Shown: positions 4,003 through 62,719 of the stretch, in pieces
Layout: each line of letters starts with the position of its first letter
Numbering within the stretch: position 1 is the stretch's first letter
NCBI RefSeq assembly: GCF_947496725.1
Contig: NZ_CANMDS010000003.1
Coordinates: 1 to 64,000, forward strand
Length of the DNA: 64,000 nt
Origin: an uncultured Dokdonia sp.
GTDB taxonomy: Bacteria > Bacteroidota > Bacteroidia > Flavobacteriales > Flavobacteriaceae
Direction: 5' to 3'
The notes under the pieces: generated by a model
What the model saw: the letters and a program-made list of their open reading frames with translations, nothing else
Databases searched by the model: none
What the model was told of the DNA's origin: nothing
Made by a program: the position numbers and the translations under genes

Positions 4003-4018
4003 CGCTTTCGCGAAAGCG
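4003..4018. repeat. Dispersed palindrome, copy 1 (perfect)
   Basis: Perfect CGCTTTCGCGAAAGCG, 9 bases after the adhesin stop codon and before the long hairpin at 4035. Confidence 0.97.
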
Positions 4019-4034
4019 TAATAACAATAACATC

Positions 4035-4079
4035 TAGTAAAATGACGATTCCGTTCAAACAACGGAAGTCATTTTACTA
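4035..4079 (+). terminator. Long hairpin after the adhesin gene
   Basis: The arms form a 12-bp outer stem (TAGTAAAATGAC with its complement) and a 7-bp inner stem (TTCCGTT/AACGGAA), separated by a 2-base bulge and closed by loop CAAAC. There is no long T run after it, so it may stop transcription only partly, or act as a processing or stability element between the adhesin and the PorP/SprF gene 22 bases further on. Confidence 0.6.
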
Positions 4080-4101
4080 AATGATTTAAACTAAGATTAG
4101 A

Positions 4102-5046
4102 ATGAAAAAGCTACATCTCATCGTATTGCTAGTGATTACGATGCTAAGTTTTACCGAAGTAAATGCTCAGCAAGATCCACAGTATACGCAGTATATGTAT
4201 AATACCGTGGCAATCAATCCAGCTTATGCTGGAAACAGAGGAGTTACAAGTATTGTAGGACTACACAGAAGTCAATGGGTTGGTCTAGACGGCGCACCAC
4301 GTACACAGAGTTTAAGTATACACTCACCTATAGGTGAAGGTAAAGTAGGGCTTGGACTTTCTATTGTAAATGATGCACTTGGACCGTCGCAAGAGACTTA
4401 TGTAGGGGCAGATTTTAGTTATACAGTTAATACTTCAGAGTCTGGAAAATTAAGTTTTGGACTTAAAGCTGGAGGACACATACTAGATGTAGACTTCACT
4501 AAGCTTACATTATTTGATGTGACAGATCCTAGATTTTCTCAAAACATTGATAATAAGATCTCACCTATTATAGGTGCTGGTTTATACTATCACACAGATA
4601 ATTTTTATGCTGGTGTAAGTGTGCCTAATCTTATTCAAACAGAACATTTTGATGTAGGTAATAATAGCAATGGAGCTAGTTTTATAGCAAAAGAGCGTAT
4701 TCATTACTATGGTATAATGGGATACACATTTGATATAAGTGATCAACTTAAATTTAAGCCTAGTACTCTTGTAAAATTGGTTCAAGGTGCGCCATTACAA
4801 GTTGATCTTACTGCAAACTTTTTGGTAATGGAAAAGCTTCACCTTGGAGCGGCTTACAGATGGAGCGCTGCATTAAGCGGTCTTGTAGGTTTTCAAGTAT
4901 CAGACAGTATGTTAATAGGGCTTGCTTATGATAGAGAGAGCACAGACTTAGGGGATACTGTCTATAATGACGGTAGTTTTGAAGTGTTTTTAAGATTTGA
5001 GCTCTTTAACGAGTATGATAGAATGTTAACACCACGATTCTTTTAA
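4102..5046 (+). CDS. PorP/SprF family type IX secretion membrane protein
   Basis: 314 residues with a signal peptide at 1-22 ending in NAQ. The mature N-terminus carries the family signature DPQYTQYMYNTVAINPAYAG, followed by alternating beta strands as in an outer-membrane barrel. PorP/SprF proteins partner with specific T9SS type B substrates; SprF is needed for SprB to reach the surface in Flavobacterium johnsoniae. Its place directly after the CHU_C adhesin and 9 bp before the OmpA-type gene makes the adhesin the likely client, by inference. The length is usual for the family. Confidence 0.93.
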   Translation: MKKLHLIVLLVITMLSFTEVNAQQDPQYTQYMYNTVAINPAYAGNRGVTSIVGLHRSQWVGLDGAPRTQSLSIHSPIGEGKVGLGLSIVNDALGPSQETYVGADFSYTVNTSESGKLSFGLKAGGHILDVDFTKLTLFDVTDPRFSQNIDNKISPIIGAGLYYHTDNFYAGVSVPNLIQTEHFDVGNNSNGASFIAKERIHYYGIMGYTFDISDQLKFKPSTLVKLVQGAPLQVDLTANFLVMEKLHLGAAYRWSAALSGLVGFQVSDSMLIGLAYDRESTDLGDTVYNDGSFEVFLRFELFNEYDRMLTPRFF

Positions 5047-5055
5047 TACAGTACT

Positions 5056-7005
5056 ATGAAAAAAATTACATTATTTATATTTCTTCTTACTGCATTTTTT
5101 GGATACGCGCAGGAAAAGAAGATAGAAAGAGCAACAAAGAGATTTAATCAATATGATTATGTAAACTCTCAAGAAATTTATCAAAAAGTAGTTGATAAAG
5201 GATATGAATCTGGTGACCTCTTTAAAAGACTTGCAGACTCATATTATTTAAATGCAAAATATGATGAAGCAGCAACATATTATGGAAAGCTTATAGAGCA
5301 ATTTCCAGAGGATGTAGAGCCAGAAGTATATTTTAGATATGCAACGTCATTAAGAGCAACAAAAGATTATTCATTATCTGATAAGATGATGGCTCGCTTT
5401 TATGACCTTGGTGAGGATGATACTAGAGCTGTATTATTTAGAAAAGCACCTGATTATCTTAGAGAGATTGAAAAGCAAAAAGGAGCTTACGATGTTTCTA
5501 TCACTCAAATTAACTCTGGATACTCAGATTTTGGATCTGCATTGTATAAGGACAAATTGATTTTTGCCTCAAACAGAGATACAGGCGGTTATACAAAACG
5601 TGTGCATAAATGGAACGGTCAACCATTCTTAAACTTATACCAAGTAGATACTAGTAAAGTAGGTCAAGATGGTGGAACTAAGTTTGCTAAGCCATTTAGC
5701 GCAAACCTTAATACGCAATATCACGAGAGTTCTCCTGTATTTGCAAAGGGAGATAGTGTTATGTATTTCACACGTAATAACTATAGCAATGGCATCTTTA
5801 GTAAAGATAGTACAGGTACTAACCAGTTAAAGTTGTACCGCGCAAGTTATAAAAATGGCGCTTGGGGCGGAGTTAAGGAATTACCATTTAATAGTGATAA
5901 TTATACCGTAGCTCACCCGGCTTTAAGCCCAGATGGTAAAAAATTATACTTCTCTTCAGATATGCCAGGTACTTTAGGTCAAGCAGACTTATGGTATGTA
6001 GTAATTAATGATGATGGTACGTATGGAGAGCCAGTAAATCTTGGTAATAGAATTAATACTGAAGGAAGAGAAAGTTTTCCATATGTAAGCGCAGCAAATG
6101 ATCTATTCTTTGCTTCAAACGGTCACCCAGGTCTTGGAGGTTTAGATATTTTCTTAACTAATCTTGATGCAACTGGTGAGGATGTAACTATACTTAATAT
6201 TGGAGAGCCTGCAAATACATCTAAAGATGATTTTGCATTCATAATTAATTCTGACACTAAAACTGGATTTCTTTCTTCTAACCGTGGTAAATCTGGTATA
6301 GATGATGACATCTATATGATAAGAGAGCTTAGAAGGCCAGAACCTCTTTGTGAAATATTACTAACTGGTAATGTAACAGATAAAAACACAGAAGAGCTTT
6401 TAAAAGGTGCTACTGTAGCTTTATATGATGATAAGAGTAATCTTATTGAATCTATAGTTACTGGTAGAAAAGCAACTTTTGAGTTTGAGCCAGAATGTGA
6501 TGCAAAATATCTTTTAAGAGGATCTAAAGATGGATACACTACAGTAGAGAAAAGAGTGTCTACGCCTAATCTATCTGGTGAAATTCAAGAGTTTTTACAA
6601 TTAGAACGTGCTGTTCAAATTGCAAAACCAGGAGACGATATTGCAAAAATATTAAATCTTAATCCTATATACTTTGATTTTGATAAGTACTATATAAGAC
6701 CAGATGCAGAGATTGAGCTTGCAAAAGTACTAGTGTATATGGAAACGTATCCTTCTGTACGTATAGACGTAAGATCACACACAGATAGTAGAGGTAATGA
6801 TGAGTACAACCGTACACTATCTCAAAACCGTAATGTATCTACTAGAGACTGGCTTATTGCAAAGGGAATTAATCCATCTAGACTTTCTGGTCGCGGTTAT
6901 GGAGAGTCTCAGCTAGTTAATGAATGTTCAAACGGTGTTCAGTGTAGTGAAGAACAACATCAACTTAACAGAAGAAGTGAGTTTATAGTTTTAAGTAATA
7001 ACTAA
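5056..7005 (+). CDS. OmpA family protein with TPR, PD40 propeller and carboxypeptidase-regulatory domains
   Basis: 649 residues. A signal peptide (1-18, ending GYAQ) leads into TPR-like helices (~20-140, e.g. DYVNSQEIYQKVVDKGYE). A PD40/WD40-like beta propeller follows (~150-430, repeats such as HPALSPDGKKLYFSSDM), then a carboxypeptidase-regulatory-like fold (~435-510). The OmpA peptidoglycan-binding domain starts near 535 (IYFDFDKYYIRPDA, VRSHTDSRGNDEYN, LSGRGYGES). This architecture is typical of the gene after PorP/SprF in T9SS-linked loci and probably anchors the surface complex to peptidoglycan. It is likely co-transcribed with the preceding gene (9-bp gap), with an intrinsic terminator after it. 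Confidence 0.92.
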   Translation: MKKITLFIFLLTAFFGYAQEKKIERATKRFNQYDYVNSQEIYQKVVDKGYESGDLFKRLADSYYLNAKYDEAATYYGKLIEQFPEDVEPEVYFRYATSLRATKDYSLSDKMMARFYDLGEDDTRAVLFRKAPDYLREIEKQKGAYDVSITQINSGYSDFGSALYKDKLIFASNRDTGGYTKRVHKWNGQPFLNLYQVDTSKVGQDGGTKFAKPFSANLNTQYHESSPVFAKGDSVMYFTRNNYSNGIFSKDSTGTNQLKLYRASYKNGAWGGVKELPFNSDNYTVAHPALSPDGKKLYFSSDMPGTLGQADLWYVVINDDGTYGEPVNLGNRINTEGRESFPYVSAANDLFFASNGHPGLGGLDIFLTNLDATGEDVTILNIGEPANTSKDDFAFIINSDTKTGFLSSNRGKSGIDDDIYMIRELRRPEPLCEILLTGNVTDKNTEELLKGATVALYDDKSNLIESIVTGRKATFEFEPECDAKYLLRGSKDGYTTVEKRVSTPNLSGEIQEFLQLERAVQIAKPGDDIAKILNLNPIYFDFDKYYIRPDAEIELAKVLVYMETYPSVRIDVRSHTDSRGNDEYNRTLSQNRNVSTRDWLIAKGINPSRLSGRGYGESQLVNECSNGVQCSEEQHQLNRRSEFIVLSNN

Positions 7006-8468: not shown

Positions 8469-8484
8469 CGCTTTCGCGAAAGCG
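8469..8484. repeat. Dispersed palindrome, copy 2 (perfect)
   Basis: Perfect 16-mer 8 bases after the bcp stop. The right flank is TGCTCA, a variant of the recurring N-ACTCA tag. Confidence 0.97.
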
Positions 8485-8556: not shown

Positions 8557-8557
8557 G

Positions 8558-9799: not shown

Positions 9800-11050
9800 C
9801 TAGCCTGCAGAGGCCATTTCCATTAAAATTGTACACAATATCGCACCATAGGTTCCTACCACGTAGCCAAAGACCGCTAGCAACACTCCCACACTCGCTA
9901 GTGACGGGTGAAACTCTGCTGCAACAACAGGAGCAGAGGCTGCTCCTCCCACGTTTGCCTGACTTCCCACAGCAAGAAAGAAAAAGGGCGCTTTTACTAG
10001 TTTTGCCACAAGTATAAGTAGGCCAGCGTGTATACCCATCCAGACAAAACCTATAGCTATAAGCCCTGGGTTATCAAGTATACTTAGTAAATCCATCTTC
10101 ATACCTATGCTTGCAACCAGTATATAGATAAAAACACTACCTATCTTACTTGCTCCAGCGCCTTCATAGTTTTTTGCCTTTGTAAACGAAAGCAAAATAC
10201 CTATTGCCGTAGCAATTGTAATCATCCAGAAAAATGTAGAGCCAAAAGACGCAAGGGCAGAGTCCTTAGGTATATCAGAAAACAGTGCAGACATACCACT
10301 CGCTCCCCAGTGTGCAATACCTACAGCGCCAAAGGCAAGTCCCAGCATTACCATAAGGTCATTAAGAGTAGGGTTGCGTTTTACACCTTCGGCAAAGGTT
10401 GATACCTTTTCTTTTAATTTTTCTATAGCTGTGTTATCTGCTTTAAGCCAGTTATCTATGCGTTTTGATTTTCCTATTCCTAGAAGTAATACTGCCATCC
10501 ATACGTTTGCTACTACTATGTCTACGAGTACCATTTGCCCATACTTGGCAGGATTGTATTTATAAATTTCTAGCATAGCTGCTTGATTTGCACCACCACC
10601 TATCCAGCTACCTGCTAGTGTAGACAGCCCTCTCCATATCGCATCTGGACCAGCACCGCCCACCGTCTCTGGTGAAATGGCTGAGATTAATAAAATAGCA
10701 AGCGGCCCGCCTATTACGATACCTAAGGTCCCTGTGAAGAACATAATAAGTGCCTTTGGGCCTAGATTTACAATAGCTTTAAGGTCTATACTTAATGTCA
10801 TAAGTACAAGAGAGGCAGGTAGCAAGTAGCGACTCGCTACATAATATAGCTGGCTACTCTCTGCATCTATTAATCCTACACTATTAAATATTGCGGGGAT
10901 CAAATAGCATAATAGTAAGGCTGGTACAACGCCATAAAACTTACCCCAGAAGCCTGTTTTCTTTCCAGAGGTGTAAAATATGCCCGCTAGTGCAAGAGCT
11001 ATGAGGCCAAAGACGATAGCATCATTTGTAAAATAAGGTGTGTTCTCCAT
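9800..11050 (-). CDS. DUF819 family inner-membrane permease-like protein
   Basis: 416 residues with about ten hydrophobic helices. Conserved DUF819 features include the glycine-rich GSWIGGGANQAAM stretch, the ASIGMKMDL helix and the C-terminal SQANVGGAASAPVVAA motif. The family resembles sodium-dependent transporters in fold, but no substrate is established for it. It is a single gene, with the dispersed palindrome at 11068 just upstream of its start. Confidence 0.88.
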   Translation of the reverse strand: MENTPYFTNDAIVFGLIALALAGIFYTSGKKTGFWGKFYGVVPALLLCYLIPAIFNSVGLIDAESSQLYYVASRYLLPASLVLMTLSIDLKAIVNLGPKALIMFFTGTLGIVIGGPLAILLISAISPETVGGAGPDAIWRGLSTLAGSWIGGGANQAAMLEIYKYNPAKYGQMVLVDIVVANVWMAVLLLGIGKSKRIDNWLKADNTAIEKLKEKVSTFAEGVKRNPTLNDLMVMLGLAFGAVGIAHWGASGMSALFSDIPKDSALASFGSTFFWMITIATAIGILLSFTKAKNYEGAGASKIGSVFIYILVASIGMKMDLLSILDNPGLIAIGFVWMGIHAGLLILVAKLVKAPFFFLAVGSQANVGGAASAPVVAAEFHPSLASVGVLLAVFGYVVGTYGAILCTILMEMASAG

Positions 11051-11067: not shown

Positions 11068-11083
11068 CGCTTTCGCGAAAGCG
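11068..11083. repeat. Dispersed palindrome, copy 3 (perfect)
   Basis: Perfect 16-mer, 17 bp upstream of the DUF819 start codon. Symmetry extends to TTTACGC/GCGTAAA. Confidence 0.97.
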
Positions 11084-14432: not shown

Positions 14433-14448
14433 CGCTTTCGCGAAAGCG
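14433..14448. repeat. Dispersed palindrome, copy 4 (perfect)
   Basis: Perfect 16-mer between two divergent start codons; right flank GACTTA is one base from the N-ACTCA tag. Confidence 0.97.
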
Positions 14449-18661: not shown

Positions 18662-19753
18662 CTATCCTTTATAAAATGGAGTCTTTACAACGGTTGCAGG
18701 TACTCTTTTCTTGCGTATCTGTATAAAGATTGCTGAGTCCGCTTTCGCGAAAGCGGTATCTACATACCCCATACCAATACCTTTATCTACAGATGGGCCC
18801 ATTGTACCAGAGGTAACGTGGCCTATTTTTGTACCTTCTTCTGTAACGATATCATACCCTTGTCTCGGTATACCACGCTCTGTAAGTTCAAAACCTACAA
18901 GGCGTTGCTTTAATCCTTCTTCTTTTTGAGCCTTAAGTGCATCGCTGTTTACAAAGTCTTTTGTAAATTTTGTTACCCAGCCTAAACCAGCCTCAAGAGG
19001 CGAGGTAGTCTCGTCTATATCGTTACCATATAAACAGTATCCCATCTCTAGGCGCAAGGTATCACGAGCCGCAAGACCTATGGGTTTTATACCCCAGTCT
19101 GCACCAGCTTCTAGAACCTTGGTCCATAGTTGCTCTGCCTCTTCATTTTTACAATAGATTTCAAACCCTCCACTACCAGTATAGCCTGTAGCACTTATAA
19201 TAACGTTTTCAAGTCCAGCAAAAGGTGCTACCTCAAAGGTGTAAAATTTAATACTAGTAAGATCTACTTCTGTAAGGCTTTGCATTGCCTCGATAGCTTT
19301 AGGTCCTTGTATAGCCAGTAGCGAGTGCCCTTCTGATATGTTTCTAAGATCTGCATTAAAACCCTTTTCTGCGTTTTGTTTTTCTATCCAAGCCCAGTCT
19401 TTATCTATGTTGCTCGCATTTACAACGAGCATATATTGATCTTCTTTTATGCGGTAAACAATGAGGTCATCTACAATACCGCCCGTAGCATTTGGGAAGC
19501 AATTGTACTGCGCACCACCTACTTTTATTTTAGAAACATCGTTTGAGCATACCCATTGTAATAGGTCTAGCGCCTTTTCTCCAGAAACAAGAAATTCACC
19601 CATATGTGACACGTCAAAAACACCTACACCGTTTCTTACGGTATCGTGCTCTGCATTTACACCCTCATATGATACGGGCATATTATAGCCCGCAAACGGG
19701 ACCATTTTTGCCCCAAGGGCTTCGTGTACTTTTGTTAAGGCTGTATTTTTCAT
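18662..19753 (-). CDS. gcvT: Glycine cleavage system aminomethyltransferase (T protein)
   Basis: 363 residues, the usual length. It transfers the methylene group of the aminomethyl-lipoyl H protein to tetrahydrofolate and releases ammonia. Recognisable parts are [12 protein letters not shown] near residue 44, the substrate-binding [10 protein letters not shown], and the C-terminal [16 protein letters not shown] and [16 protein letters not shown]. Palindrome copy 5 is inside the C-terminal domain, where it encodes AFAKADSA. No other glycine-cleavage gene is next to it. A TAnnTTTG box lies upstream and the 18604 hairpin ends it. Confidence 0.96.
18740..18755. repeat. Dispersed palindrome, copy 5 (perfect, inside gcvT)
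   Basis: Perfect 16-mer read as AFAKA by the minus-strand gcvT. On the minus strand its right flank is GACTCA, and a 24-bp stretch here equals that around copy 16. Confidence 0.97.
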
Positions 19754-21464: not shown

Positions 21465-21480
21465 CGCTTTCGCGAAAGCG
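21465..21480. repeat. Dispersed palindrome, copy 6 (perfect)
   Basis: Perfect 16-mer directly after the thrC stop codon. No T run follows in the thrC direction. Confidence 0.97.
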
Positions 21481-24643: not shown

Positions 24644-25429
24644 ATGTCAAAATATATTTCTAGTCTTCAAAACCCAACGGTAAAACGTTTACTTCAACTT
24701 CAAGAAAAGTCACGCACTCGTAAGAAGGAAGGTGGTTTTATAATAGAAGGTAAACGTGAGATTAAGCTCGCTATCGCTGGCGGCTATACCATTACTGAGG
24801 TGTATTATGACGAGCAACTTATAACGCCATCTTCGGTAGAAGAACTTGTGGGGGCCAAGATATCCCTTACGAGCCTAGCAACCGAAGTTTATAAAAAAGT
24901 AGCTTACAGAGCAGGTACTGAGGGGGTGATCGCTTTCGCGAAAGCAAAAAAAACCACATTATCAGAATTACAATTACCAGTAAACCCACTCATACTAGTT
25001 GCCGAAGCACCAGAAAAACCTGGTAACATAGGCGCACTACTTCGCACAGCAGATGCTGCCGCGGTCGATGCCGTTATTATAGCAAACCCCAAAACAGATT
25101 TATATAATCCTAACATCATACGCTCTAGCGTGGGGTGTGTGTTTACAACACAAATTGCTACTGGGAGTACGGAGGAGGTTATCTCTTTCTTGCAAGAAAT
25201 GGATGTTGCTATATACAGTGCCATATTACAAGAGGCGGTAGACTATGCAACGCAGGCATATACTGGTGGTAGTGCTATTGTAGTAGGTACAGAGGCTACT
25301 GGTTTATCTCCAGAGTGGAGAACGGTGGGTACAAATATTAAAATCCCTATGCGTGGTAAAATAGACTCTATGAATGTATCTGTAGCAGCGGGAATATTAA
25401 TCTTTGAGGCTAGAAGACAGCGCTCATAG
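24644..25429 (+). CDS. TrmH/SpoU-type RNA 2'-O-methyltransferase
   Basis: 261 residues. The N-terminal ~90 are an L30e-like substrate-binding domain (LQNPTVKRLLQLQEKSRTR, GGFIIEGKREIKLA). The C-terminal SPOUT knot shows the three family motifs: NIGALLRTADAAA, VVGTEATGLSPEW and IPMRGKIDSMNVSVAAGIL. It probably methylates a ribose in rRNA or tRNA using S-adenosylmethionine; the target base is not known. Palindrome copy 7 lies between the two domains and encodes AFAKA. A TACATTTG box at 24632 is only 4 bases from the ATG, so the mRNA could be nearly leaderless. Confidence 0.93.
   Translation: MSKYISSLQNPTVKRLLQLQEKSRTRKKEGGFIIEGKREIKLAIAGGYTITEVYYDEQLITPSSVEELVGAKISLTSLATEVYKKVAYRAGTEGVIAFAKAKKTTLSELQLPVNPLILVAEAPEKPGNIGALLRTADAAAVDAVIIANPKTDLYNPNIIRSSVGCVFTTQIATGSTEEVISFLQEMDVAIYSAILQEAVDYATQAYTGGSAIVVGTEATGLSPEWRTVGTNIKIPMRGKIDSMNVSVAAGILIFEARRQRS
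24931..24946. repeat. Dispersed palindrome, copy 7 (15/16, inside SpoU gene)
   Basis: Only the last base differs (A for G). Read as AFAKA in the linker of the methyltransferase. Confidence 0.95.
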
Positions 25430-26848: not shown

Positions 26849-26864
26849 CGCTTTCGCGAAAGCG
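26849..26864. repeat. Dispersed palindrome, copy 8 (perfect)
   Basis: Perfect 16-mer between the NUDIX and acyltransferase genes, with the right flank CACTCA. Confidence 0.97.
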
Positions 26865-29043: not shown

Positions 29044-29059
29044 CGCTTTCGCGAAAGCG
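29044..29059. repeat. Dispersed palindrome, copy 9 (perfect)
   Basis: Perfect 16-mer with outer symmetry TTA/TAA, upstream of the sigma gene and beyond the end of the next minus-strand gene. Confidence 0.97.
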
Positions 29060-32000: not shown

Positions 32001-32016
32001 CGCTTTCGCGAAAGCG
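32001..32016. repeat. Dispersed palindrome, copy 10 (perfect)
   Basis: Perfect 16-mer with outer symmetry TTA/TAA, in the 344-bp gap upstream of the choice-of-anchor I gene. Confidence 0.97.
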
Positions 32017-33234: not shown

Positions 33235-33250
33235 CGCTTTCGCGAAAGCG
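33235..33250. repeat. Dispersed palindrome, copy 11 (perfect)
   Basis: Perfect 16-mer between the divergent starts of the YdeI-like gene and the TonB receptor gene. Confidence 0.97.
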
Positions 33251-38836: not shown

Positions 38837-39805
38837 TTAATAAGATAACCCTATTTGCGCTCTTATTTTATCTAGCATCATAATGAGTTCTTTACTCTTA
38901 GAAAATGTCATTACATCACTCTCAGTCTTTTTTAAGGCAAGCATCTCTTGACAATGTAGTATCTCATAATGATATCCATTTACATCATTAGGCGTAGAAA
39001 ATTCTAGTGTTTCTGTCACTCCATTTTCGGTAAGGGTTACTGAGCTCGGTTCGTGAAAACGGCTGTTTATGATAATTTCTCCTTTTTCTAAAACAATATG
39101 GCAGCGTGTAGGTGTCTCCTCATCTATCGCCGAAAATAGTTGTGCCTCCACCCCAGTAGGGTAACGCAGTTTAATAGTACAGTTATGATCAACGCCAGTA
39201 GGGCCTAGAGTAGCCTTAGCATTTATATCTTCTGGATAACCAAGTAAAGAGAGCGCTGCAAAAACAGGATAGATACCTACGTCTAGTAAACTACCGCCAC
39301 CAAGGGATTTATTGTACAGCCTAGAAGTCGTGTCAAACGGACTATTAAAACCAAAATCTGCTTTAAGTGATTGTATCTCTCCTAGGGTGCCACTAGCTAC
39401 TTTGTCAAGTACAAATTTATAATGTGGTAAAAAGTGTGTCCATAATGCTTCCATTAGGAATGTTTTTTTCGCTTTCGCGAAAGCGATCATCTCCTCAACC
39501 TCATTAAGATTCATAGCAAAAGCTTTCTCGCAGAGCACAGCCTTGTTATTTGATAAACAGAGGAGCGTATTTTCCTTATGAAACATATGTGGCGTAGCGA
39601 TATAAACAATGTCTATGTCTGGATCTTGCGCCATCTCTTCATAACTACCATAAGACTTTACAGCTTTGTAGGTGTTACCAAAGTTTACAGCCTTTTCTTT
39701 ATCACGACTCGCTACGGCATATAAGTTTGCACCTTCGGTGAGGAGGAGGTCATTTGCAAATTTGCCAGCTATCTTTCCGCAGCCTAGTATTGCCCAGTTT
39801 GTCAT
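38837..39805 (-). CDS. Gfo/Idh/MocA family oxidoreductase
   Basis: 322 residues. The NAD(P)-binding GCGKIAGKF motif is at residues 8-16. The catalytic-region motif is CEKAFAMN where most members have EKP. The C-terminal alpha/beta domain has GGGSLLDVGIYPV with the usual DxGxYP pattern. It probably oxidises or reduces a sugar or cyclitol. Palindrome copy 12 lies near residues 107-112 and encodes AFAKA in the helix after the EKAF motif. It lies 56 bp downstream of the symporter gene with copy 13 between them. Confidence 0.9.
   Translation of the reverse strand: MTNWAILGCGKIAGKFANDLLLTEGANLYAVASRDKEKAVNFGNTYKAVKSYGSYEEMAQDPDIDIVYIATPHMFHKENTLLCLSNNKAVLCEKAFAMNLNEVEEMIAFAKAKKTFLMEALWTHFLPHYKFVLDKVASGTLGEIQSLKADFGFNSPFDTTSRLYNKSLGGGSLLDVGIYPVFAALSLLGYPEDINAKATLGPTGVDHNCTIKLRYPTGVEAQLFSAIDEETPTRCHIVLEKGEIIINSRFHEPSSVTLTENGVTETLEFSTPNDVNGYHYEILHCQEMLALKKTESDVMTFSKSKELIMMLDKIRAQIGLSY
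39470..39485. repeat. Dispersed palindrome, copy 12 (perfect, inside oxidoreductase gene)
   Basis: Perfect 16-mer, read on the minus strand as AFAKA. Confidence 0.97.
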
Positions 39806-39831: not shown

Positions 39832-39847
39832 TGCTTTCGCGAAAGCG
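39832..39847. repeat. Dispersed palindrome, copy 13 (15/16)
   Basis: First base is T instead of C. It sits in the 56-bp gap between the symporter stop and the oxidoreductase start. Confidence 0.95.
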
Positions 39848-41688: not shown

Positions 41689-44226
41689 TTACTGTTTAAT
41701 ATCTTGCTGCTCTTGTTTACCTACACTAAGCATATTTGCAAATAGCTTGTATGCCCCAGATACTCCAGCTGGTAACTCTCTAAAAAAGCTTAAGCCAGTG
41801 TAGATATAATGTCCTTTACCATATGCTGCGATGAGAAGACTTCCATCTTTTGTAGTTTCTCCCTTATCGTTCATTGATAAAATAGGCGTGTACTCACTAG
41901 ACCATTTATTCGGAAAATAAAGACCTCGCTCTTGTGTCCATCCTTGAAAATCTTGTTGAGACAACTTGTTAGGAAAATTCATAAGTGGGTGATCTTTTGC
42001 TAGGATTCTCACCTCGCTATTTTCATCTGTCACACGGTCTCTAGAGAGTGTAAGCTCATACGGAGCGCCTATTTTTGTGTTGCCCCAGCGTCCAGAGGTG
42101 TTGTATTGTGCGATAAGTGTTCCGCCATCTTTTACATAATCTAGTAGTAGTGGTTGTTTTGCTTGCATCTCATCTACCACATTATAAGCACGTATACCTA
42201 CAACCACAGCGTCAAACTGTGATAGCAACTCTGGTGTTATGGTCGCAGGATCTATCACTGCAACTTGATAACCTATCTGCGCGAGGTTATCTGGTACCGC
42301 ATCTCCAGCTCCTTGTATGTAACCTATGTAGTTACCCTTGCGTGCAATGTCTAGTCGTACAACACGTGCTTTATTAGGCAAGAATAATGACTGCAGCGGG
42401 ATGTGCGCGTAGTCTATTTTTATAAGCTCTTTAGTATACGTCTTTCCGCCAGAAACCACACGCGGACTCAAATCACCCTCGCTATCACCAGCCGGTGGTG
42501 TTACTGTAAATACAAACTCTTTTTCTTCTCCCTTATTTGCTATAGAAACATCATAACTAGCAGGTGATACCGTCCATCCAGATGGTTTATTTAGTAGTAC
42601 AGTTCCTGTAAAATTAGCTTGATGTGCTGTGACTGTCACGGGTATTTTTTTTGATTCCGCTTTCGCGAAAATGATCACCTTAGACTCTAGTCTAGATGAC
42701 ACAGCTGGTACAATTTCAAAAGGCTCATACACTTCACCTTTTACTCTGTCATTGTATTTATAGACGATAGGTTTTGTAATACTTATAGGCACTCCCGAAA
42801 TGACAAGGTCAAATGTGACTGTGTTTTCTTGTGGTGTTTCTGGTTTACCTATCATTTGCTGGTCTGCAACCTTGTACATACCTAAAGTACCTTCTTCTCG
42901 TAACCAGTATGCAGAGGTATCTTTAAAGTCATCACTTACTGAAAGGGTTGTTGATGTAGTATAACGCTCATTATTCGCTAGTGGTTGATTAGACGCCACT
43001 ACGTTATCTGTAACTGTTACGGTAGCTTTTTTGAGAACTACAGACTGAGTACTTCTATTTATAGCTTCTATATCCAGTTTTATTGAGCTGCCTATGGTTG
43101 CATAATTTGTATCTGCTTTTGCTTCTAGGTATAGGCCTGTCACTGCAGTGATAATTGTCTCAAGTTCTTTAGACTTTATGTTTTTCCAGTGTGTGTCTTC
43201 TAGTTGTTGTACGAGGGCATATGCCTTCATAAGTTGTGGTATACTCTTATCTGGCGCAGTGAAGTCATAGGTGGCAACTACGTTGTCTAGTATTGTCTTT
43301 ATTGCTTTTCCTCCTTTAACACGTGTCCAAGTGGTGTTAATACCTTGAAAAACATCATCGTTAGTAGGCATTTCTCCACGTAGTAACTCAAAATAAGTAT
43401 CACTAGTACCACGCGAGCCTGTATTACCAAATCCTTGAGACTTATGCTGACTTCTACTAAGGGAAGATATTTCTGTATTTGATAACCCTAAGCCAGGGTA
43501 GAAGGTACCTACATCTACTTTTACAAGGTTAGACTTATCTGCTGCTTCAAATTTTTCTCTACTTCCATAAAACCACCAAGAGGTATTAAAGAATTGTCTT
43601 TGTGGTGACCAGGTATCTGTGTATTGTAATTGATTTGGATATTTTGCGGCATCTCCAGCAAGATCATATGCTTCTACAGAGAGCATTGCACTAGAGGTGT
43701 GATGGCCGTGTGTGCTTCCCGGTGTTCTGTGATTAAATCTATTAATGATTACATCCGGCTTAAAAGTACGTATCGCCCATACTACATCACCCAGTACTTC
43801 TTCTTTGTTCCAGATGGCAAGTGTCTCATCTGGGTGTTTTGAGTAACCAAAATCGTTTGCACGTGTAAAACGTTGCTCTCCACCATCTGTTGCGCGAGCG
43901 GCAAGTAACTCATTAGTGCGTATTACTCCTAAAAGTTCCCTTAGTTCTGGGCCTATAATATTCTGGCCACCATCACCTCTTGTAAGTGATAAGTATGCCG
44001 TTCTTGCTTTTACGGTATTTGCAAAGTAGGAGATAGCTGTTGTGTTCTCGTCATCTGGGTGTGCAGCAACATATAGTACAGAGCCTAAGAAATTTAGCTT
44101 TTTTAGGTCTTCATAAATTTCGCTAGCTGTAGGTTTACTGGGCTGTACAGTGATTCCTTGTGAGTACGCTTTCGCGAAAGCAAAAAAAGAAATCAGAACA
44201 AAAATCACATAGGATTTGCGTGTCAT
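41689..44226 (-). CDS. PIG-L family N-deacetylase, large secreted form
   Basis: 845 residues from the ATG at 44226. The signal peptide contains palindrome copy 15, so AFAKA forms residues 16-20 just before the cleavage region. The zinc motif AHPDDE is at 55-60 and the third ligand is in THGHH near 170. About 300 residues form the PIG-L domain (SLTRGDGGQNIIG). The rest is a beta-rich C-terminal region (~380-840) that ends with a glutamine-amidotransferase-like fold (FDAVVVGIRAYNV, GGTLIAQYNTSGRW). It probably removes acetyl groups from an N-acetyl sugar. Palindrome copy 14 is also inside. Confidence 0.9.
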   Translation of the reverse strand: MTRKSYVIFVLISFFAFAKAYSQGITVQPSKPTASEIYEDLKKLNFLGSVLYVAAHPDDENTTAISYFANTVKARTAYLSLTRGDGGQNIIGPELRELLGVIRTNELLAARATDGGEQRFTRANDFGYSKHPDETLAIWNKEEVLGDVVWAIRTFKPDVIINRFNHRTPGSTHGHHTSSAMLSVEAYDLAGDAAKYPNQLQYTDTWSPQRQFFNTSWWFYGSREKFEAADKSNLVKVDVGTFYPGLGLSNTEISSLSRSQHKSQGFGNTGSRGTSDTYFELLRGEMPTNDDVFQGINTTWTRVKGGKAIKTILDNVVATYDFTAPDKSIPQLMKAYALVQQLEDTHWKNIKSKELETIITAVTGLYLEAKADTNYATIGSSIKLDIEAINRSTQSVVLKKATVTVTDNVVASNQPLANNERYTTSTTLSVSDDFKDTSAYWLREEGTLGMYKVADQQMIGKPETPQENTVTFDLVISGVPISITKPIVYKYNDRVKGEVYEPFEIVPAVSSRLESKVIIFAKAESKKIPVTVTAHQANFTGTVLLNKPSGWTVSPASYDVSIANKGEEKEFVFTVTPPAGDSEGDLSPRVVSGGKTYTKELIKIDYAHIPLQSLFLPNKARVVRLDIARKGNYIGYIQGAGDAVPDNLAQIGYQVAVIDPATITPELLSQFDAVVVGIRAYNVVDEMQAKQPLLLDYVKDGGTLIAQYNTSGRWGNTKIGAPYELTLSRDRVTDENSEVRILAKDHPLMNFPNKLSQQDFQGWTQERGLYFPNKWSSEYTPILSMNDKGETTKDGSLLIAAYGKGHYIYTGLSFFRELPAGVSGAYKLFANMLSVGKQEQQDIKQ
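42658..42673. repeat. Dispersed palindrome, copy 14 (degraded, inside PIG-L gene)
   Basis: The first 13 bases match; the last three (ATG) do not. On the minus strand it reads IFAKA, the same frame as the other genic copies. Confidence 0.8.
44167..44182. repeat. Dispersed palindrome, copy 15 (15/16, PIG-L signal peptide)
   Basis: The last base is A. On the minus strand it reads AFAKA and is followed by TACTCA, an exact N-ACTCA flank. Confidence 0.95.
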
Positions 44227-45983: not shown

Positions 45984-46933
45984 TAGTTTAATTCTAATTC
46001 TGTACGCAAAGCTTCATCTGCAATACTTTTTTTACCCCAGTAGGCACTTTTAATGGTTTTCATCTTAGTGGCTGTCGTTGTCATAGGAGTGCCGTCACGC
46101 CCTTGAGGAAATGTCTCTGTCCAGCCCTCTATAGTATGAGGGAACTCAGGCGTAAATTGTATAGTAACTGTGCGTTTTAATTCTGGATATTCTATTGTGT
46201 AAGAATCCCCATTTAGGCTTCCTGTTGCTTGATATGCTGCAAGATCAATATGTGAGTTACGTATAAATTCAAGATTAGGTATAGCCTTAAATGATCCTGT
46301 AGGGAGCGAGGTTGGGTCAAGGCGTATTTGTGTCCATAATTCATTTTCTAGTATATCTTTTGGGAGACCCATTTCTTGGTCTGCCTCAGATTGAAAGTAG
46401 GAGTGAGAGGTCACTTCAAAGTCTTCTCTGTTATTAAGTTGTGCATATACGTGACCGCACCATTCTTGTGTGCTCTGTGATACTTTTATAGCGTGTTTTT
46501 TTTCGGTAATGGGATAAAATGTGCTGGTCATTATGGAATAGGGGTAGATGCCTGTTACAAACTTTTTGGTAGCATTGAGCTTTAGGACAGGGATGTTGCT
46601 ATCGTTTTGGGCATCTGCTTTTACTTGTTCTTTTGGCAAGAAATCTTCGGTTACATAAATCAAGACTGCTGTGCCTGGTCTTATCTCGCCATATCGTGCT
46701 TGATCTAGTTTATAAGAAGAAATTTCGGCAGTGCCGGCATACCAGTAATCTTTCCACTCTTGAGATAAATTACGTTTTTCTGAGGTGGTGGTTTTAGCTG
46801 AGTCCGCTTTCGCGAAAGCGATATTATCCCCAGTCTCTTTTTTACAACTTATAAGTATCGCAGGTAGCGCAATAGCGGCTATAAAAAAGAATATAGTACG
46901 CTTTTGTGTAAACATTTTTTTTAAGAATCCCAT
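45983..46933 (-). CDS. Conserved lipoprotein of the maf-corA operon
   Basis: 316 residues. The lipoprotein signal ends ILISCKK (Cys30). The body shows SQEWKDYWYAGTAEISSYKL, a WCGHVYAQLNN motif and a FPHTIEGWTETF segment; no catalytic motif is evident. It is a Bacteroidetes protein that I associate only with this gene neighbourhood, and annotation pipelines may mislabel it after Maf. Palindrome copy 16 encodes AFAKADSA just after the lipid anchor, in the flexible linker. The stop overlaps the corA start. Confidence 0.78.
   Translation of the reverse strand: MGFLKKMFTQKRTIFFFIAAIALPAILISCKKETGDNIAFAKADSAKTTTSEKRNLSQEWKDYWYAGTAEISSYKLDQARYGEIRPGTAVLIYVTEDFLPKEQVKADAQNDSNIPVLKLNATKKFVTGIYPYSIMTSTFYPITEKKHAIKVSQSTQEWCGHVYAQLNNREDFEVTSHSYFQSEADQEMGLPKDILENELWTQIRLDPTSLPTGSFKAIPNLEFIRNSHIDLAAYQATGSLNGDSYTIEYPELKRTVTIQFTPEFPHTIEGWTETFPQGRDGTPMTTTATKMKTIKSAYWGKKSIADEALRTELELN
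46805..46820. repeat. Dispersed palindrome, copy 16 (perfect, lipoprotein linker)
   Basis: Perfect 16-mer, minus-strand frame AFAKA, followed by GACTCA. 24 consecutive bases match those around copy 5 in gcvT. Confidence 0.97.
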
Positions 46934-49030: not shown

Positions 49031-49781
49031 AGGTAGTGTGTATCGCTTTTGTAAGAGCGTTATAAATATCTTTGTGATCTGGGTTTTCTAGTAAATCTAG
49101 TTGATTGTTTATGACAGCTATGTCACCTCTTTTTGCAGGGCCTGTTTGACTATTTGCAGGTCCATTTTCTAAAGCCTTTTGAGCTGTTTTTAAGATAAGT
49201 GGGTGTAGGGTTTTTACATCTACCTCATATTGCTCGCAGATGTCTTGAGCGATGGTATAGCAGTGGTTTGTAAAATTATTTGCAAACACGGCAGCTAGAT
49301 GGAGCTGTCTTCTCTGTGTGCTATTTATTACTTGTACTGTATTAGATATCATCGCACCTAGCTCGCGCAAGGTTTTTTCATCTTCATCGTTATCTGCCTC
49401 TACTAGAATTGGTATTTCGGCAAAGTTTATAGACGTATCATCTTTAGAAAAACTTTGTAAAGGGTAAAAAACGCCTTTATTATGCTTTCGCGAAAGCGTA
49501 CTCATAGCCGTATATCCAGAAGTGTGTACTACAAGTGTGTTATCAAAAGGAATTTGACTAGACACCTCTGCAATCACATCGTCACTCACAGCAATGATAG
49601 TCACGTCTGAAGGAGAAAGCTCCTCAATACTTACCGTATGACGAGCCATATTTTTAAAAGGCTTAAGGCTAGCCTCAGTACGGCCAGCTACTTGCATTAC
49701 GACTGCACGGTTTTGTGCACCTAGTGCCTTTGCCAGATGCCACGCTACATTACCAGTACCCACAATGTTTACTTCTATCAT
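49014..49781 (-). CDS. Rossmann-like / DUF2520 domain protein
   Basis: 255 residues. The N-terminal NAD(P)-binding domain begins VNIVGTGNVAWHLAKAL (GxGxxA). The C-terminal DUF2520 helical domain carries RRQLHLAAVFANNFTNH and PLILKTAQKALENGP, as in F420-NADP reductase/ketopantoate-reductase-like proteins. The substrate is unknown. It is first in the operon leading to the KdsC-like, UbiA, Maf, lipoprotein, CorA and MscS genes. It contains palindrome copy 17 in an unusual frame (LSRK). Confidence 0.88.
   Translation of the reverse strand: MIEVNIVGTGNVAWHLAKALGAQNRAVVMQVAGRTEASLKPFKNMARHTVSIEELSPSDVTIIAVSDDVIAEVSSQIPFDNTLVVHTSGYTAMSTLSRKHNKGVFYPLQSFSKDDTSINFAEIPILVEADNDEDEKTLRELGAMISNTVQVINSTQRRQLHLAAVFANNFTNHCYTIAQDICEQYEVDVKTLHPLILKTAQKALENGPANSQTGPAKRGDIAVINNQLDLLENPDHKDIYNALTKAIHTTYGKKL
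49483..49498. repeat. Dispersed palindrome, copy 17 (15/16, inside DUF2520 gene)
   Basis: First base is T. The right flank on the plus strand is TACTCA. This is the only genic copy not in the AFAKA frame; it reads LSRKH. Confidence 0.95.
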
Positions 49782-49897: not shown

Positions 49898-52800
49898 ATG
49901 CAAAAGAAAATCGCTTCTATTTTATTCTCCACACGCTTGATGGGGATCCTTTTTATAGCCTACTTTGTTGCAATGGCAGTAGGAACATTTTTAGATATAG
50001 GTCAAGAAACTTCACCTACGCCATACTCAAGATACTGGATTTATGATGCTTGGTGGTTTACACTTATTCATATTCTGTTTGTAGTCAACTTTATAGGAAA
50101 TATATTCAGATATAAATTGTTGCGCAAGGAGAAGATAACGACATTAGTTTTTCACCTTTCATTTGTACTTATTTTAATAGGAGCGGGTATTACAAGATAT
50201 ATAAGTTATGAAGGTGTTATGCCTATTGAGGAGGGTTCGACCGAAAATTCTTTCTTAAGCGAGAAAACCTACCTTGATGTTTTTATAGATGGAGAGCAAA
50301 ACGGCCAGCCTATGCGCCGTGCAATAGAAAAGGAGTTATCACTATCGCCTAGATTAAATAATGATTTTACGTGGACAGAAGATTTTGTGCACGATACAAA
50401 TAACAGAAGTGACAAGACCACTTTTACTTTTGGTTTTAACAAATTTATAGATGGTGCTCAAGATGGATTTGTAGAAGATGAGAGCGGGTTATGGCACCTT
50501 AAAATTGTAGAGACAGGTACAGATAACCAGCGTCACGAGCACTTTCTAGTAGAAGGTGAGCTAGTGAATATTCACAATGTACTCTATGCCTTTAATAAGC
50601 CTACAGATGGCGCTATAAACATAGGGTTTGACGGTGAAAACTACACTTTTAAATCACCATTTGCAGGTTCTGTTACTGTAATGGCAACACAAGATGAGAG
50701 TGAGGTGCCAGAAGATGTAGAGCAGCCACTTAAACTACGAGCACTTTATAACTTAGGCGGCAAGTTACTCGTTATACCAGACCAAGCTATACGTGGTCGT
50801 ACTGGTATTGTTGCAAAAGAGGTAAAAGAAAAAAATCAAGAGGATGCACTCTTTGTAGATGTAACCGCAAATGGCGAGACCAAAACAGTAGGACTACTAG
50901 GTGGTAAAGGCTATAGTAATGATAAAAAACAAATAGAGGTAGGAGGGCACAAAGTTTATCTAGCATACGGAAGTAAGTCTATGCCACTACCGTTTTCGAT
51001 AAAGCTCAACAAATTTATCGCTAGAAGATACCCTGGTACACAAAATGTATACTCGTCTTTTGAAAGCCAGATAACGGTAGAAGATCCTGAAGAAAATTTT
51101 GATTACGAAATTTATATGAACCACGTTTTAGACCACAAAGGATTTAGATTTTTTCAAGCAAGTTTCTTTCCAGATGAGTCTGGTACGATACTTTCTGTAA
51201 GTCACGATTTTTGGGGAACTTGGGTTACATACATAGGTTACTTTTTACTGTACATAGGTATGATGATGATTCTTTTTGATAAGGGATCACGTTTTGGTGA
51301 GCTCAAGCGTCGTTTAGATAAGATTAAACTTAAGAAGTCTAAACTTATGATGATTGTGTTTTTGATTGCTTTCGCGAAAGCGGGATACGCACAAGAAGAT
51401 ATATCTAATCAAACTACCGAAGTAAGCAACGGAAACGTAGTCGTAAAAGACACCGTAGCTGTTACTGGAGAAAATATAAGTGACATTTTAGGACTTGACA
51501 GTCACCAAGGAGAGCCACACGAGCAGGCTATGCCCTCACAAGAAGAGATAAAAAGACTCATTGTAGAAAATGCAGTACCACTAGAGCACGCAGAAAAGTT
51601 TGGCCGTCTTATCATACAAGAAGATGGGCGTATGATGCCTATTAATACATACTCAAGTATGTTATTACGTAAGTTAAGTAGGAGTGATACTTATGAAGGC
51701 CTTACTGCAGACCAAGTAATGCTCTCAATGATGGAAAACCCGCAAATATGGAGTTTTGCAGAGATCATATACCTTCAAAAAGGAAATGATAGTTTACGTA
51801 ATGTAGTGGGTGTACCGTCAGACAGAAAGTACTTTAAACAAATGGATTTCTTTACCTCAGACTTTAGGTATAAACTAGCTCCATTTTTACCAGAGGCATA
51901 TGCAGAGGCAAACCCTACAAAAATTTCTAAAGAATTTATAGACGTCTCAGAGCGTATGAATCTCCTAGACAGAACACTGGTTAAAGAAGTTTTAAGAATA
52001 TTCCCAAAACCAGATGATTCAAATAACACGTGGATCTCTCCTATAAAAGTAAAGGATGTCCCTTATCGAGCTACAGACTCTGTCATTGCAAATCAAATTT
52101 TTCCTGCTTATTTATTGAGTTTAAAGAAGGGTAGAGCTACTGGAGATTACACGGATGCAGATAAAGTTTTGCAAGGTATAGAGAAGTTTCAGCGCAGTCA
52201 TAGTAATGATATAATGCCTTCTATAGAGAAGCGTGATGCAGAGATTTTTTACAATAAGTATGATGTCTTTACAAAGCTTTACTGGATGTACATGCTGGCA
52301 GCCGTATTTATGATGATTTTTGTTATTGCTGCTATTTTTAACAACAATAAGTTCATCAACTGGATGACTAAGCTCGGTGCAGCTGCGATTGTTGTATTAT
52401 TTATTGTACACACCATAGGCTTGATATGGCGATGGTATATTGCTGGGCACGCACCGTGGAGTAATGCTTATGAGTCTGTACTATATGTAGGGTGGGCAAC
52501 GGTATTTTTTGGCCTAGCCTTCGGGAGAAAGAGTCAACTTACTATTGCTAGTACTGCGTTTGTAGGTGCTTTTATATTATGGGCAGCCTCTATGAACTGG
52601 ATGAATCCAGAGATAGAGAATTTACAAGCTGTACTAGATAGTTACTGGTTAATGATTCATACTGCAGTAATTGTAGCGAGTTATGGTCCTTTTACGCTAG
52701 GAGCTATTCTAGGAGTTGTCTCATTATTCTTAATGATATTTACAACTGAAAAAAATAAGGAAAAGATGGATCTTAATATTAAAGAGATAACCATCATTAA

Positions 52801-56412: not shown

Positions 56413-56428
56413 CGCTTTCGCGAAAGCG
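56413..56428. repeat. Dispersed palindrome, copy 19 (perfect)
   Basis: Perfect 16-mer between two convergent terminators, so it probably lies outside both transcripts. Confidence 0.97.
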
Positions 56429-59620: not shown

Positions 59621-60427
59621 ATGAAAAAGATAAAAAAACCGCTCATCGCCATATTCATCATTGCAAACTTATATGCCATCCTTTGTGGCGGACTGTATTT
59701 TTTTCAAGACAACCTCATTTTCCACCCGCAGCAATTGCCGCAGGAGTATGCTTTTGATTTTGATGGCGATTATAAGGAGGTTTGGGTAGATGCGCCAGAT
59801 GGAGCCCGGCTTAATGGCTTGCACTTTACGGTTACAAACCCAAAGGGCGTGATACTTTATCACCACGGTAATGCAGGCAGTCTCGCGCAGTGGGGACAAA
59901 TCGCCCAGCCATTTGTACAAAAGGGCTACGCGGTTATTATTATGGATTACAGGCAGTATGGAAAGAGTGGGGGAGCACTCACAGAGGCGGCGCTTTATGA
60001 TGATAGTTTGCTGTGGTACGCTTTCGCGAAAGCGCAATATCCCACAACACCCATAACGAGTTACGGCAGGAGCCTGGGGACGACCTTTGCAACCTATGTG
60101 GCGTCAAAAAAAGAAGTCACTAAGCTGGTGCTTGAAACTCCTTTTTATAGTATACTAGACGAGGCACAATCCCGCTTTTCGATCCTTCCGGTTGAGAAAC
60201 TGCTCAACTATAGATTGCCTACGTATAGCTTTATAAATGAGGTGACGGCTCCTATAACCGTGATACACGGCACAGAAGACAGTGTGGTGGCTTATGAGCA
60301 CGGTAAAGCCCTTTATGATAGCATTAGGACAACTACAAAGACTTTTGTAACTGTACCTGACGGTGATCACAATAACCTAAGCGATTTTGAGGCGTATCAA
60401 AAAGCGACGGCTACACTTTTTGAGTAG
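59621..60427 (+). CDS. Membrane-anchored alpha/beta hydrolase
   Basis: 268 residues. An N-terminal helix (IAIFIIANLYAILCGGLYFF) is followed by the QDNLIFHP start typical of YqkD/BEM46-like hydrolases. The oxyanion motif is YHHGNAGS, the nucleophile elbow GRSLG, the acid in HGTEDSVV and the His in DGDHNN. The substrate is unknown. Palindrome copy 20 encodes AFAKA in the helix before the nucleophile. Its 3' end abuts the convergent hydrolase gene. Confidence 0.88.
   Translation: MKKIKKPLIAIFIIANLYAILCGGLYFFQDNLIFHPQQLPQEYAFDFDGDYKEVWVDAPDGARLNGLHFTVTNPKGVILYHHGNAGSLAQWGQIAQPFVQKGYAVIIMDYRQYGKSGGALTEAALYDDSLLWYAFAKAQYPTTPITSYGRSLGTTFATYVASKKEVTKLVLETPFYSILDEAQSRFSILPVEKLLNYRLPTYSFINEVTAPITVIHGTEDSVVAYEHGKALYDSIRTTTKTFVTVPDGDHNNLSDFEAYQKATATLFE
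60019..60034. repeat. Dispersed palindrome, copy 20 (perfect, inside hydrolase gene)
   Basis: Perfect 16-mer read as AFAKA on the plus strand. Confidence 0.97.
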
Positions 60428-61862: not shown

Positions 61863-61878
61863 CTTTTTCGCGAAAGCG
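61863..61878. repeat. Dispersed palindrome, copy 21 (degraded)
   Basis: The right half is intact, but the left half has two changes (CTTTTTCG). It lies between two minus-strand genes, next to a terminator. Confidence 0.75.
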
Positions 61879-61879
61879 T

Positions 61880-61912
61880 AAAAAAAGAAACCCGAGGCTC
61901 TCGCGCTCGGGA
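61880..61912 (-). terminator. Intrinsic terminator of the 61965 gene
   Basis: CCCGAG/CTCGGG stem; on the minus strand TTTCTTTTTTT follows. Confidence 0.85.
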
Positions 61913-61964
61913 ATCTAACCAACCAAAGTTGTTTTGCGTTTATAAACGCAGTGGGGGAAATGTA

Positions 61965-62474
61965 TTACTTATACATTTTATCGTTTGGTTTAACTTCATA
62001 GGTGATGGTTGTTACCGTATCATCCTTGTCATTATATTTTTCTGACACCATATTTCCATTTTTGTCAAAATAGTTTACAGAGATACCCTCCTTTGTTTTC
62101 ATAAGGTATACGTCACCTTTTGCCAGTTTACGCATTGTACCATACTCAGAGGTGTTGTTTTCTCTTGTTCTTTTTATGGCGTATCCATTTTGAGTTTCCT
62201 CTAGGCGAAAGTCTGAGTCGTTATAGGTGTATGTCACCTCTTTTTTTACCATTGTCTTACCACGTTGTAAGGACTGGTTGAGTTGCCCCTTGTCACTTTT
62301 TTTAACTGAGGTAGGGGTTACCTCAGTTTCTTTTACCGTTTTATATACGGTCTCATTACCTAGTGAAGACTTTACGGTCGTTCTAGTTTTTGTGATTTTT
62401 TCTACTTTTTCTTGTGCTTGTACGGCTGTTGCGGTACATACAGCTAGTGCTGCTATGATAAGTGATTTTTTCAT
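61965..62474 (-). CDS. Secreted protein of unknown function
   Basis: 169 residues from the ATG at 62474, which opens a signal peptide (MKKSLIIAALAVCTATAVQAQ). The mature protein is threonine- and lysine-rich and beta-like (TKTRTTVKSSLGNETVYKTVKETEVTP), and ends in FDKNGNMVSEKYNDKDDTVTTITYEV. No family is recognised. It is probably periplasmic. It ends at a strong terminator and begins in a 267-bp divergent region shared with ychF. Confidence 0.75.
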   Translation of the reverse strand: MKKSLIIAALAVCTATAVQAQEKVEKITKTRTTVKSSLGNETVYKTVKETEVTPTSVKKSDKGQLNQSLQRGKTMVKKEVTYTYNDSDFRLEETQNGYAIKRTRENNTSEYGTMRKLAKGDVYLMKTKEGISVNYFDKNGNMVSEKYNDKDDTVTTITYEVKPNDKMYK

Positions 62475-62662
62475 CGGTCTTGTTTTTTGTTTGTACAAAT
62501 TTAAGATCCTTTTCTGCTTATGATAGCCAACGGGATGGTAAGACTTTATTAAGCCTTTCCCAATATTACTGGGCTCGCAAGGCGATTAACTTAAATTAAC
62601 ACAAAAGTGATGCTTTCTGTGGCTCGTCGTATAAGCCACTCGGTAGATCAATAAAATAGGAT

Positions 62663-62670
62663 TATCTTTG
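62663..62670 (+). promoter_or_regulatory. Candidate -7 box TATCTTTG for ychF
   Basis: TAnnTTTG match. It predicts a start near 62677, so palindrome copy 22 at 62704 would be in the ychF leader. Confidence 0.45.
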
Positions 62671-62703
62671 CACCCTAAAAATAAAGTGGAAAGAATGGTT
62701 TTC

Positions 62704-62719
62704 CGCTTTCGCGAAAGCG
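62704..62719. repeat. Dispersed palindrome, copy 22 (perfect)
   Basis: Perfect 16-mer in the probable 5' leader of ychF, 22 bp before its ATG. Confidence 0.97.

Follow-up and report, generated by a model that had tools for sequence, protein, structure and literature searches.

Why should one 16-bp palindrome recur every few kilobases in the DNA of an uncultured Dokdonia species? The stretch analysed here (the window) comprises the first 64,000 nucleotides of contig NZ_CANMDS010000003.1 (assembly GCF_947496725.1, Flavobacteriaceae), in which the original prediction, made from the letters alone, had listed 22 copies about 3 kb apart and proposed a genome-wide system. A scan of the window allowing up to 3 mismatches recovered all 22 at exactly the predicted positions and with the predicted quality: 15 are perfect, 5 carry one mismatch, always at an end base, and 2 (at 42658 and 61863) carry two; the mean spacing is 2,795 bp. 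Dinucleotide shuffles of the window gave 0.07 copies on average and 1 at most. When the search was extended to the genome of the window (G000; 3.29 Mb in 121 contigs), 1005 copies with at most 2 mismatches were found, about 1 per 3.3 kb, compared to 1 for a reversed control. The copies are thus neither confined to the window nor explained by chance at the genome scale, and the palindrome looks like a genome-wide signal read by some cell machine.

Counts in related Flavobacteriaceae, which the original prediction had recommended, showed that the signal is restricted to few genera. All 18 Dokdonia genomes examined carry 438–1096 copies, the number of sites being not proportionally higher in larger genomes. 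Among 397 genomes of the family, the only others with hundreds of copies belong to the genera g11 (690, 747 and 718) and g210 (541), and the remaining genomes have 0–31. The same partition was observed around the threonine synthase gene thrC, for which the best 80 of 465 related loci were kept, 7 from Dokdonia and 73 from elsewhere. The window gene is closest to that of the Dokdonia locus L029 (97% identity), which upholds the family, Flavobacteriaceae, assumed in the original prediction; each of the 7 Dokdonia loci has 3–7 sites, whereas 61 of the 73 others have none and 12 have one, with 1–2 mismatches. In genome G001, also assigned to Dokdonia, the sole thrC match (contig C244) is 61% identical to that of the window, well under its congeners, and this assembly is perhaps a mixed bin. 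Among the open-licence PMC papers searched, which are not all that is in print, none was about the palindrome and none held the 14-mer, in agreement with the earlier statement that no established name is known for it in this group.

The copies are evenly placed. Over 384 kb of G000, sites lie 2,925 bp apart on average, and the coefficient of variation (CV) of the spacing is 0.50, compared to 0.98 for random placement and 1.085 ± 0.097 for a coding-aware null, the lowest of 1000 runs being 0.784. Only 3 of 124 gaps are shorter than 500 bp (null mean, 24.6), and the longest gap is 8.2 kb (null mean, 18 kb). Counts per 10 kb in G016, a complete chromosome, have a variance-to-mean ratio of 0.22; when plotted against origin and terminus, as previously suggested, 23 sampled stretches of this chromosome hold 5–9 sites per 20 kb with no trend. 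Within-stretch CV values are 0.41 in g11 and 0.62 in g210.

We then defined the unit of the signal. The inner sequence TTCGCGAA occurs 156 times in 464 kb of G000, every one within TTTCGCGAAA, 142 within GCTTTCGCGAAAGC and 111 within the perfect 16-mer. In a survey of 453 distinct Dokdonia and g11 sites chosen by exact core, xGC arms are present on both sides in 378, on one side in 75 and on neither side in 0. Moreover, half-sites scarcely occur alone, as 216 of the 218 GCGAAAGCG occurrences in the G016 sample fall inside the palindrome. The unit is therefore a dyad, in which a 10-bp core is nearly invariant and one or both arms are good. The core is mutated in 6 of 277 copies in Dokdonia, 10 of 113 in g11 and 5 of 36 in g210. 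In the G005 lineage of Dokdonia (loci L173–L181, from G005, G007 and G008), many sites, chiefly intergenic ones, have one arm altered to xAT, CATTTTCGCGAAAGCG being an example, as though the tolerance of the reader had shifted.

The next question is whether individual sites are maintained. Gene contexts were taken from simple gene calls on the 464 kb of G000. As originally predicted, copies lie both in genes and in gaps and are not tied to one gene class; however, gaps are strongly enriched, with 1.24–2.9 sites per kb compared to 0.226 per kb in coding DNA. Intergenic density is highest between convergent genes (2.9 per kb), and divergent gaps carry sites too. The coding sites, 93 of the 156, read as the peptide AFAKA and variants (54), LSRK (22) or FRES (17) depending on the frame, and several lie near gene starts in contexts that resemble signal peptides by eye. 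When the window was aligned to other genomes, the exact core was kept at 17 of 19 alignable sites in G005 (77% identity), 14 of 15 in G007, 19 of 19 in G016 and 14 of 17 in G008, where one miss is an alignment slip. More distant genomes align little: G011 kept 0 of 1, G010 had no alignable site, and the 1 alignable site of G230 is kept at two mismatches with a changed core. At thrC codon 329, a site read as LSRK is present in 5 of the 7 named Dokdonia loci, of which one represents genome G010, and outside the genus in G230, whereas all 73 non-Dokdonia loci have other residues. This site is absent from G000, G005, G011, L029 and L031, the window having a site about 320 bp away instead. A thrC tree built from 36 of the 80 named loci plus 4 genomes (40 rows) places G230 beside Dokdonia (support 99/96) on a long branch.

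Positions are also shared across genera. Among coding sites in genes shared with the Dokdonia samples, 5 of 10 in g210 and 2 of 14 in g11 lie within 8 nt of a Dokdonia site, and g210 and g11 share a coding-site position in 1 of 6. As the script kept the nearest of several hits, random positions were run as a control, and 0 of 130 in g210 and 0 of 129 in g11 (0/259) fell within 8 nt of a Dokdonia site. A relic in G368 near a Dokdonia thrA site was rejected as the same position, as it is 7–10 nt off and in another frame. Judged from these sequence comparisons, the palindrome is kept in place by selection, even inside genes, and protein sequence bends to the motif. In locus L027, two neighbouring genes have a site (at 9994 and 11631) in the same peptide context (DIDTLSRKQILT), and gene duplication therefore seems to have copied the site.

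Composition is also skewed beside the dyad. C is avoided on the strand that leads 5' into the core, over some 20 nt on either side. Within 10 nt of the core, C falls to about 4% between genes, compared to a background of 15–17% further out, and mostly to 6–10% in genes, the skew being weakest in frame 0 (14% on the coding-strand side). Over 280 sites, GGG, GTT, TGT and GTG are up 2.2–3-fold in these flanking arms and CAC and CCC down about 8-fold. Next to a good arm, 15 nt contain 1.0 C on average, compared to 1.8 next to a broken arm (p 0.0002). When the flanks of 12, 12 and 11 window sites were compared with those of G005, G007 and G008, respectively, they were about as diverged as their surroundings; T–G and A–G exchanges predominate, and changes involving C amount to 19/92, 18/91 and 14/81, the three comparisons being not independent. 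An extended hairpin was rejected: pairing of the two flanks within a copy is not above independence and is weaker than between flanks swapped among copies (−10.4 vs −11.1 kcal/mol with RNA parameters), and the flanks therefore do not extend a hairpin.

Sites are also found on mobile DNA and phages. Of the 26 copies in G116, the 22 that were listed all fall within a single 78-kb stretch (C3:32330-110030) at host-like density, and 5 of these 22 have a changed core. An island of G376 (L150–L153) encodes heavy-metal P-type ATPases, CusB-like and resistance-nodulation-division (RND) efflux proteins and TraG, and a stretch of G029 (L154–L158) encodes an RND pump and a cation-efflux-type protein. These islands lie in genera without the genome-wide motif, and those of G116, G376 and G029 may have passed through carrier hosts. 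The core is mutated in 6 of 32 sites in the islands of G376, G029, G141 and G142, compared to the 6 of 277 in Dokdonia (p 0.0005), a frequency not clearly above that of g11 (p 0.12) or g210 (p 0.74); decay in hosts lacking the system is only suggested. In the genus g164, G184 and G368 have 22–31 copies, mostly dispersed and imperfect, several variants being the same in both species, and these may be remnants of a genome-wide system that was lost. The exact 16-mer was found in 41 stretches of 30 IMG/VR contigs, some of them GC-rich single hits that are perhaps due to chance. A scan of 10 proteins from 6 viral loci found matches to terminase, portal, head or tape-measure families in L129, L139 and L114; sites therefore do occur in genuine tailed phages. 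Of the other three loci, L146 showed a weak tail-type match, L122 matched only families without a known function, and L133 matched nothing. Viral loci with three sites have them 1.2–6.6 kb apart, and the phages concerned probably infect carriers.

The reading that we favour, with a probability of roughly 0.35, is that the palindrome is an orientation-free, Chi-like DNA-processing signal, bound as a dyad and read by a host factor. We infer that the dyad is recognized in double-stranded form by a dimeric protein and that the DNA beside the core is used as a single strand. An AddAB-like helicase-nuclease arriving from either side of a break would meet the palindrome and there be switched from degradation to RecA loading; the palindromic symmetry would let the signal act whichever way the enzyme came, coating of the 3'-ended strand would begin at the GT-rich 5' arm, and one site per 3 kb would keep losses small. 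This reading is favoured because it accounts for the spacing, for the symmetry in both directions, for the GT-richness of the strand 5' of the core and for the sites on phages and on a conjugative-type island. The tailed-phage contigs and the TraG-bearing island are both possible substrates of end processing. Like E. coli Chi (GCTGGTGG), the palindrome is overrepresented, covers the genome evenly every few kb in about a thousand copies, occurs on mobile DNA and is preceded, on the 3'-ended strand, by GT-rich DNA, here for either direction of approach. Chi recombination hotspots are also known for the AddAB of Firmicutes. As to number, the 1005 copies in the 3.29 Mb of G000 resemble the 1008 Chi sites tabulated for E. 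coli in PMC1939737, and PMC3763553 gives TGG repeats as the DNA on which RecA filaments are most stable.

Several observations weigh against a Chi-like signal. The Chi sites known elsewhere are short and asymmetric, and they are read on a single strand, whereas the Dokdonia unit is a palindromic dyad of 13–16 bp. TGG is enriched only 1.4-fold in the flanks of the 280 sites. The flanks of g210 are scarcely skewed (C 17%, G 27%) and therefore not essential everywhere. In the closer G016 the flanks are somewhat better conserved than DNA 50–60 nt off (0.98 vs 0.90 in coding and 0.90 vs 0.81 in intergenic DNA), and part of the constraint may therefore be on the exact sequence. PMC3763553 reports no nucleation of RecA at Chi or TG-rich DNA in vitro and, citing other work, states that codon usage explains the GT-rich islands around E. 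coli Chi. The enzyme itself does not follow the motif: PF12705 matches, which we took as AddB, were found in all 25 genomes searched, 21 of which have a further match resembling AddA, and motif-free genomes possess AddB no less than carriers do. Over about 770 of 900 residues of AddB, no residue was both shared by all three carrier genera and confined to them; a few small gaps are commoner in carriers (11/11 vs 2/14 at column 260) without being exclusive, and AddB is not supported as the specificity partner. The AddB tree does not unite the three carrier genera in one clade, so that the system is either old and often lost, or has moved. Close site pairs were considered as pointers to an autoregulated reader gene, but among the genes listed near five such regions, of which one sequence was read, we noted by eye a histidyl-tRNA synthetase-like gene and a putative permease, and the analysis did not find the reader protein. 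A fuller scenario would make the signal an ancient flavobacterial one, inherited position by position across three genera and lost elsewhere, with a dyad-binding protein switching DNA-end processing either way, arms devoid of C as an adaptation to strand loading, phages and conjugative elements carrying the signal to survive in their hosts, and host proteins rewritten to keep the 3-kb spacing; taken as a whole, this scenario is rather unlikely.

A somewhat doubtful but serious alternative is a chromosome-architecture site, at which a dimeric nucleoid or segregation protein bound every ~3 kb would bridge, loop or condense the chromosome; long-resident phages and conjugative elements would gain sites because a site-free stretch harms the host. 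This alternative accounts for the dyad as the unit, with one good arm being sufficient at each of the 453 core-bearing sites, better than a Chi-like signal does, and it fits the even spacing, the conserved positions and the absence of a preferred gene class. The sites of Noc, SlmA, MatP and ParB (parS) are palindromes of 13–16 bp bound by chromosome proteins, those of Noc, SlmA and MatP having an origin or terminus bias. The Dokdonia motif differs from these in its far higher copy number and in its uniform density along the G016 chromosome. A Noc/ParB site is unlikely for Dokdonia, as 12 of 13 carriers have one ParB helix-turn-helix match and no paralogue is tied to the motif; the second match in G010 is weak (E 8e-8) and resembles one in the non-carrier G034. 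An architectural role also leaves the strand-specific composition of the flanks unexplained.

It is improbable that the palindrome is a DNA-uptake signal for natural transformation, built up by molecular drive like the uptake signal sequences (USS) of Haemophilus or the DNA uptake sequences (DUS) of Neisseria, although several features are those of such signals. Uptake sequences combine high copy number, genus-level restriction, a preferred reading frame and protein change, all of which are found here, and the hundreds to a thousand copies with intergenic excess are likewise expected of them. According to PMC1939737, the uptake sequences of Pasteurellaceae and Neisseriaceae occur in genes with an excess in non-coding DNA; the same text attributes to Karlin the view that they are evenly spaced, a point also disputed there, the spacing being called less even than compaction sites should be. 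That text describes them, however, as not palindromic, unlike the Dokdonia motif. Molecular drive is moreover expected to leave a gradual ladder of mismatches, as in Actinobacillus pleuropneumoniae, for which a table of PMC1939737 gives 947 one-mismatch and 438 perfect copies. Such a ladder was not seen in Dokdonia, where one-mismatch copies are few (32 vs 111 perfect in G000; 35 vs 85 in G016) and core-mutated intermediates rare, whereas g210, with 14 one-mismatch and 10 perfect copies, is nearer to it. ComEC is present in 24 of 24 genomes, but being universal it does not track the motif and is uninformative. The presence of the motif in tailed-phage contigs also speaks against uptake, and the listings of the literature search showed no report of uptake bias in Flavobacteriaceae.

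The original prediction had pointed to HIP1 of cyanobacteria (GCGATCGC), a highly iterated palindrome (described so in PMC4390886), as a loose parallel. This parallel is upheld, since both are short perfect palindromes whose singular excess spans the genomes of one bacterial group. The Dokdonia motif differs in its length (16 bp vs 8), its density of ~1 per 3.3 kb, its strand-skewed flanks and its restriction, at hundreds of copies, to three genera of the family sample. That an orphan DNA methyltransferase keeps it, in the manner supposed for a HIP1-like palindrome, is very unlikely, and the proposed methylation motif is weakened to that extent: the D12 family is somewhat commoner in carriers (7/13, one weak) than in non-carriers (2/11), but it is absent from 6 of 13 carriers, C5 methylases are absent from 7 of 13 and the N6/N4 family exceeds the cut-off in only 2 of 13, so that none of the three families is common to carriers, and outside the motif the inner TTCGCGAA shows no excess.

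An RNA-level element (terminator, hairpin or stability element) is still less credible: the 16-mer can form a 6-bp hairpin and its density is highest between convergent genes, but most sites lie in genes, in all frames, divergent gaps carry sites, the flanks pair less than swapped flanks, and no T-run follows the palindrome, for which reason an intrinsic terminator was rejected. A miniature mobile palindrome, of the repetitive extragenic palindrome (REP) type with its REP-associated tyrosine transposase (RAYT) or a miniature inverted-repeat transposable element, has the least chance of all. Like REP and REPIN elements the motif is iterated, palindromic and commoner between genes, and RAYT-type matches are present in 3 of 3 g11 genomes; however, 8 of 9 Dokdonia genomes and G230 lack such matches, copies share no flanking sequence, positions are inherited across 23% divergence, and most sites are coding, unlike the strictly extragenic REP. 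The inherited positions, the unshared flanks and the lack of RAYT therefore refute, for Dokdonia, the mobile palindrome that had been among the roles first proposed. An overrepresented 18-nt near-perfect palindrome of Caldithrix abyssi, described in PMC5317091 without a known role, is likewise spread genome-wide with an intergenic preference, but it has 38 exact cores, is far rarer, is unrelated in sequence and was reported there for one genome, its authors doubting the coding copies. On the whole, the interpretation given in the original prediction is partly supported: of its proposed roles, a nucleoid-protein site and an uptake tag are kept as alternatives, and the Chi-like signal is a further role put forward here.

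Table 1. The 22 copies of the palindrome in the window, with the strand (+ or −) of the genes concerned.
Copy	Position	Context and conservation
perfect	4003..4018	between two + genes, 9 bp past stop
perfect	8469..8484	between convergent genes, 8 bp past stop
perfect	11068..11083	between two − genes
perfect	14433..14448	between divergent genes
perfect	18740..18755	within − gene (peptide AFAKA); kept in G005, G007, G008, G016, L030
perfect	21465..21480	immediately after thrC stop
one end base changed	24931..24946	within + gene (AFAKA)
perfect	26849..26864	between two + genes
perfect	29044..29059	between two − genes
perfect	32001..32016	between two − genes
perfect	33235..33250	start of − gene (LSRK)
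perfect	39470..39485	within − gene (AFAKA)
one end base changed	39832..39847	between two − genes
one arm broken (CGC kept on other side)	42658..42673	within − gene
one end base changed	44167..44182	near start of − gene (AFAKA)
perfect	46805..46820	within − gene (AFAKA)
one end base changed	49483..49498	within − gene (LSRK)
one end base changed	51367..51382	within + gene (AFAKA); perfect in G016, G007, G008; core changed in G005
perfect	56413..56428	between genes
perfect	60019..60034	within + gene (AFAKA)
one arm broken	61863..61878	between two − genes; core not kept in G005, G007, G008
perfect	62704..62719	between divergent genes

The positions of all copies are collected in Table 1. Elsewhere in the window, positions 295–3993 encode a large protein in which 9 stretches match DUF7507 and which carries a CHU_C signal for type IX secretion.

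Taken together, a thousand even, individually conserved sites that override protein sequence suggest that the cell needs a landmark every 3 kb. Few genome-wide signals of this kind are understood (Chi, USS/DUS), and HIP1 is still debated. As Dokdonia has cultured strains, such as the D. pacifica type strain, the job of the motif is directly testable. The motif would also serve to trace DNA that once resided in carrier hosts, for example the metal-efflux islands found in other genera.

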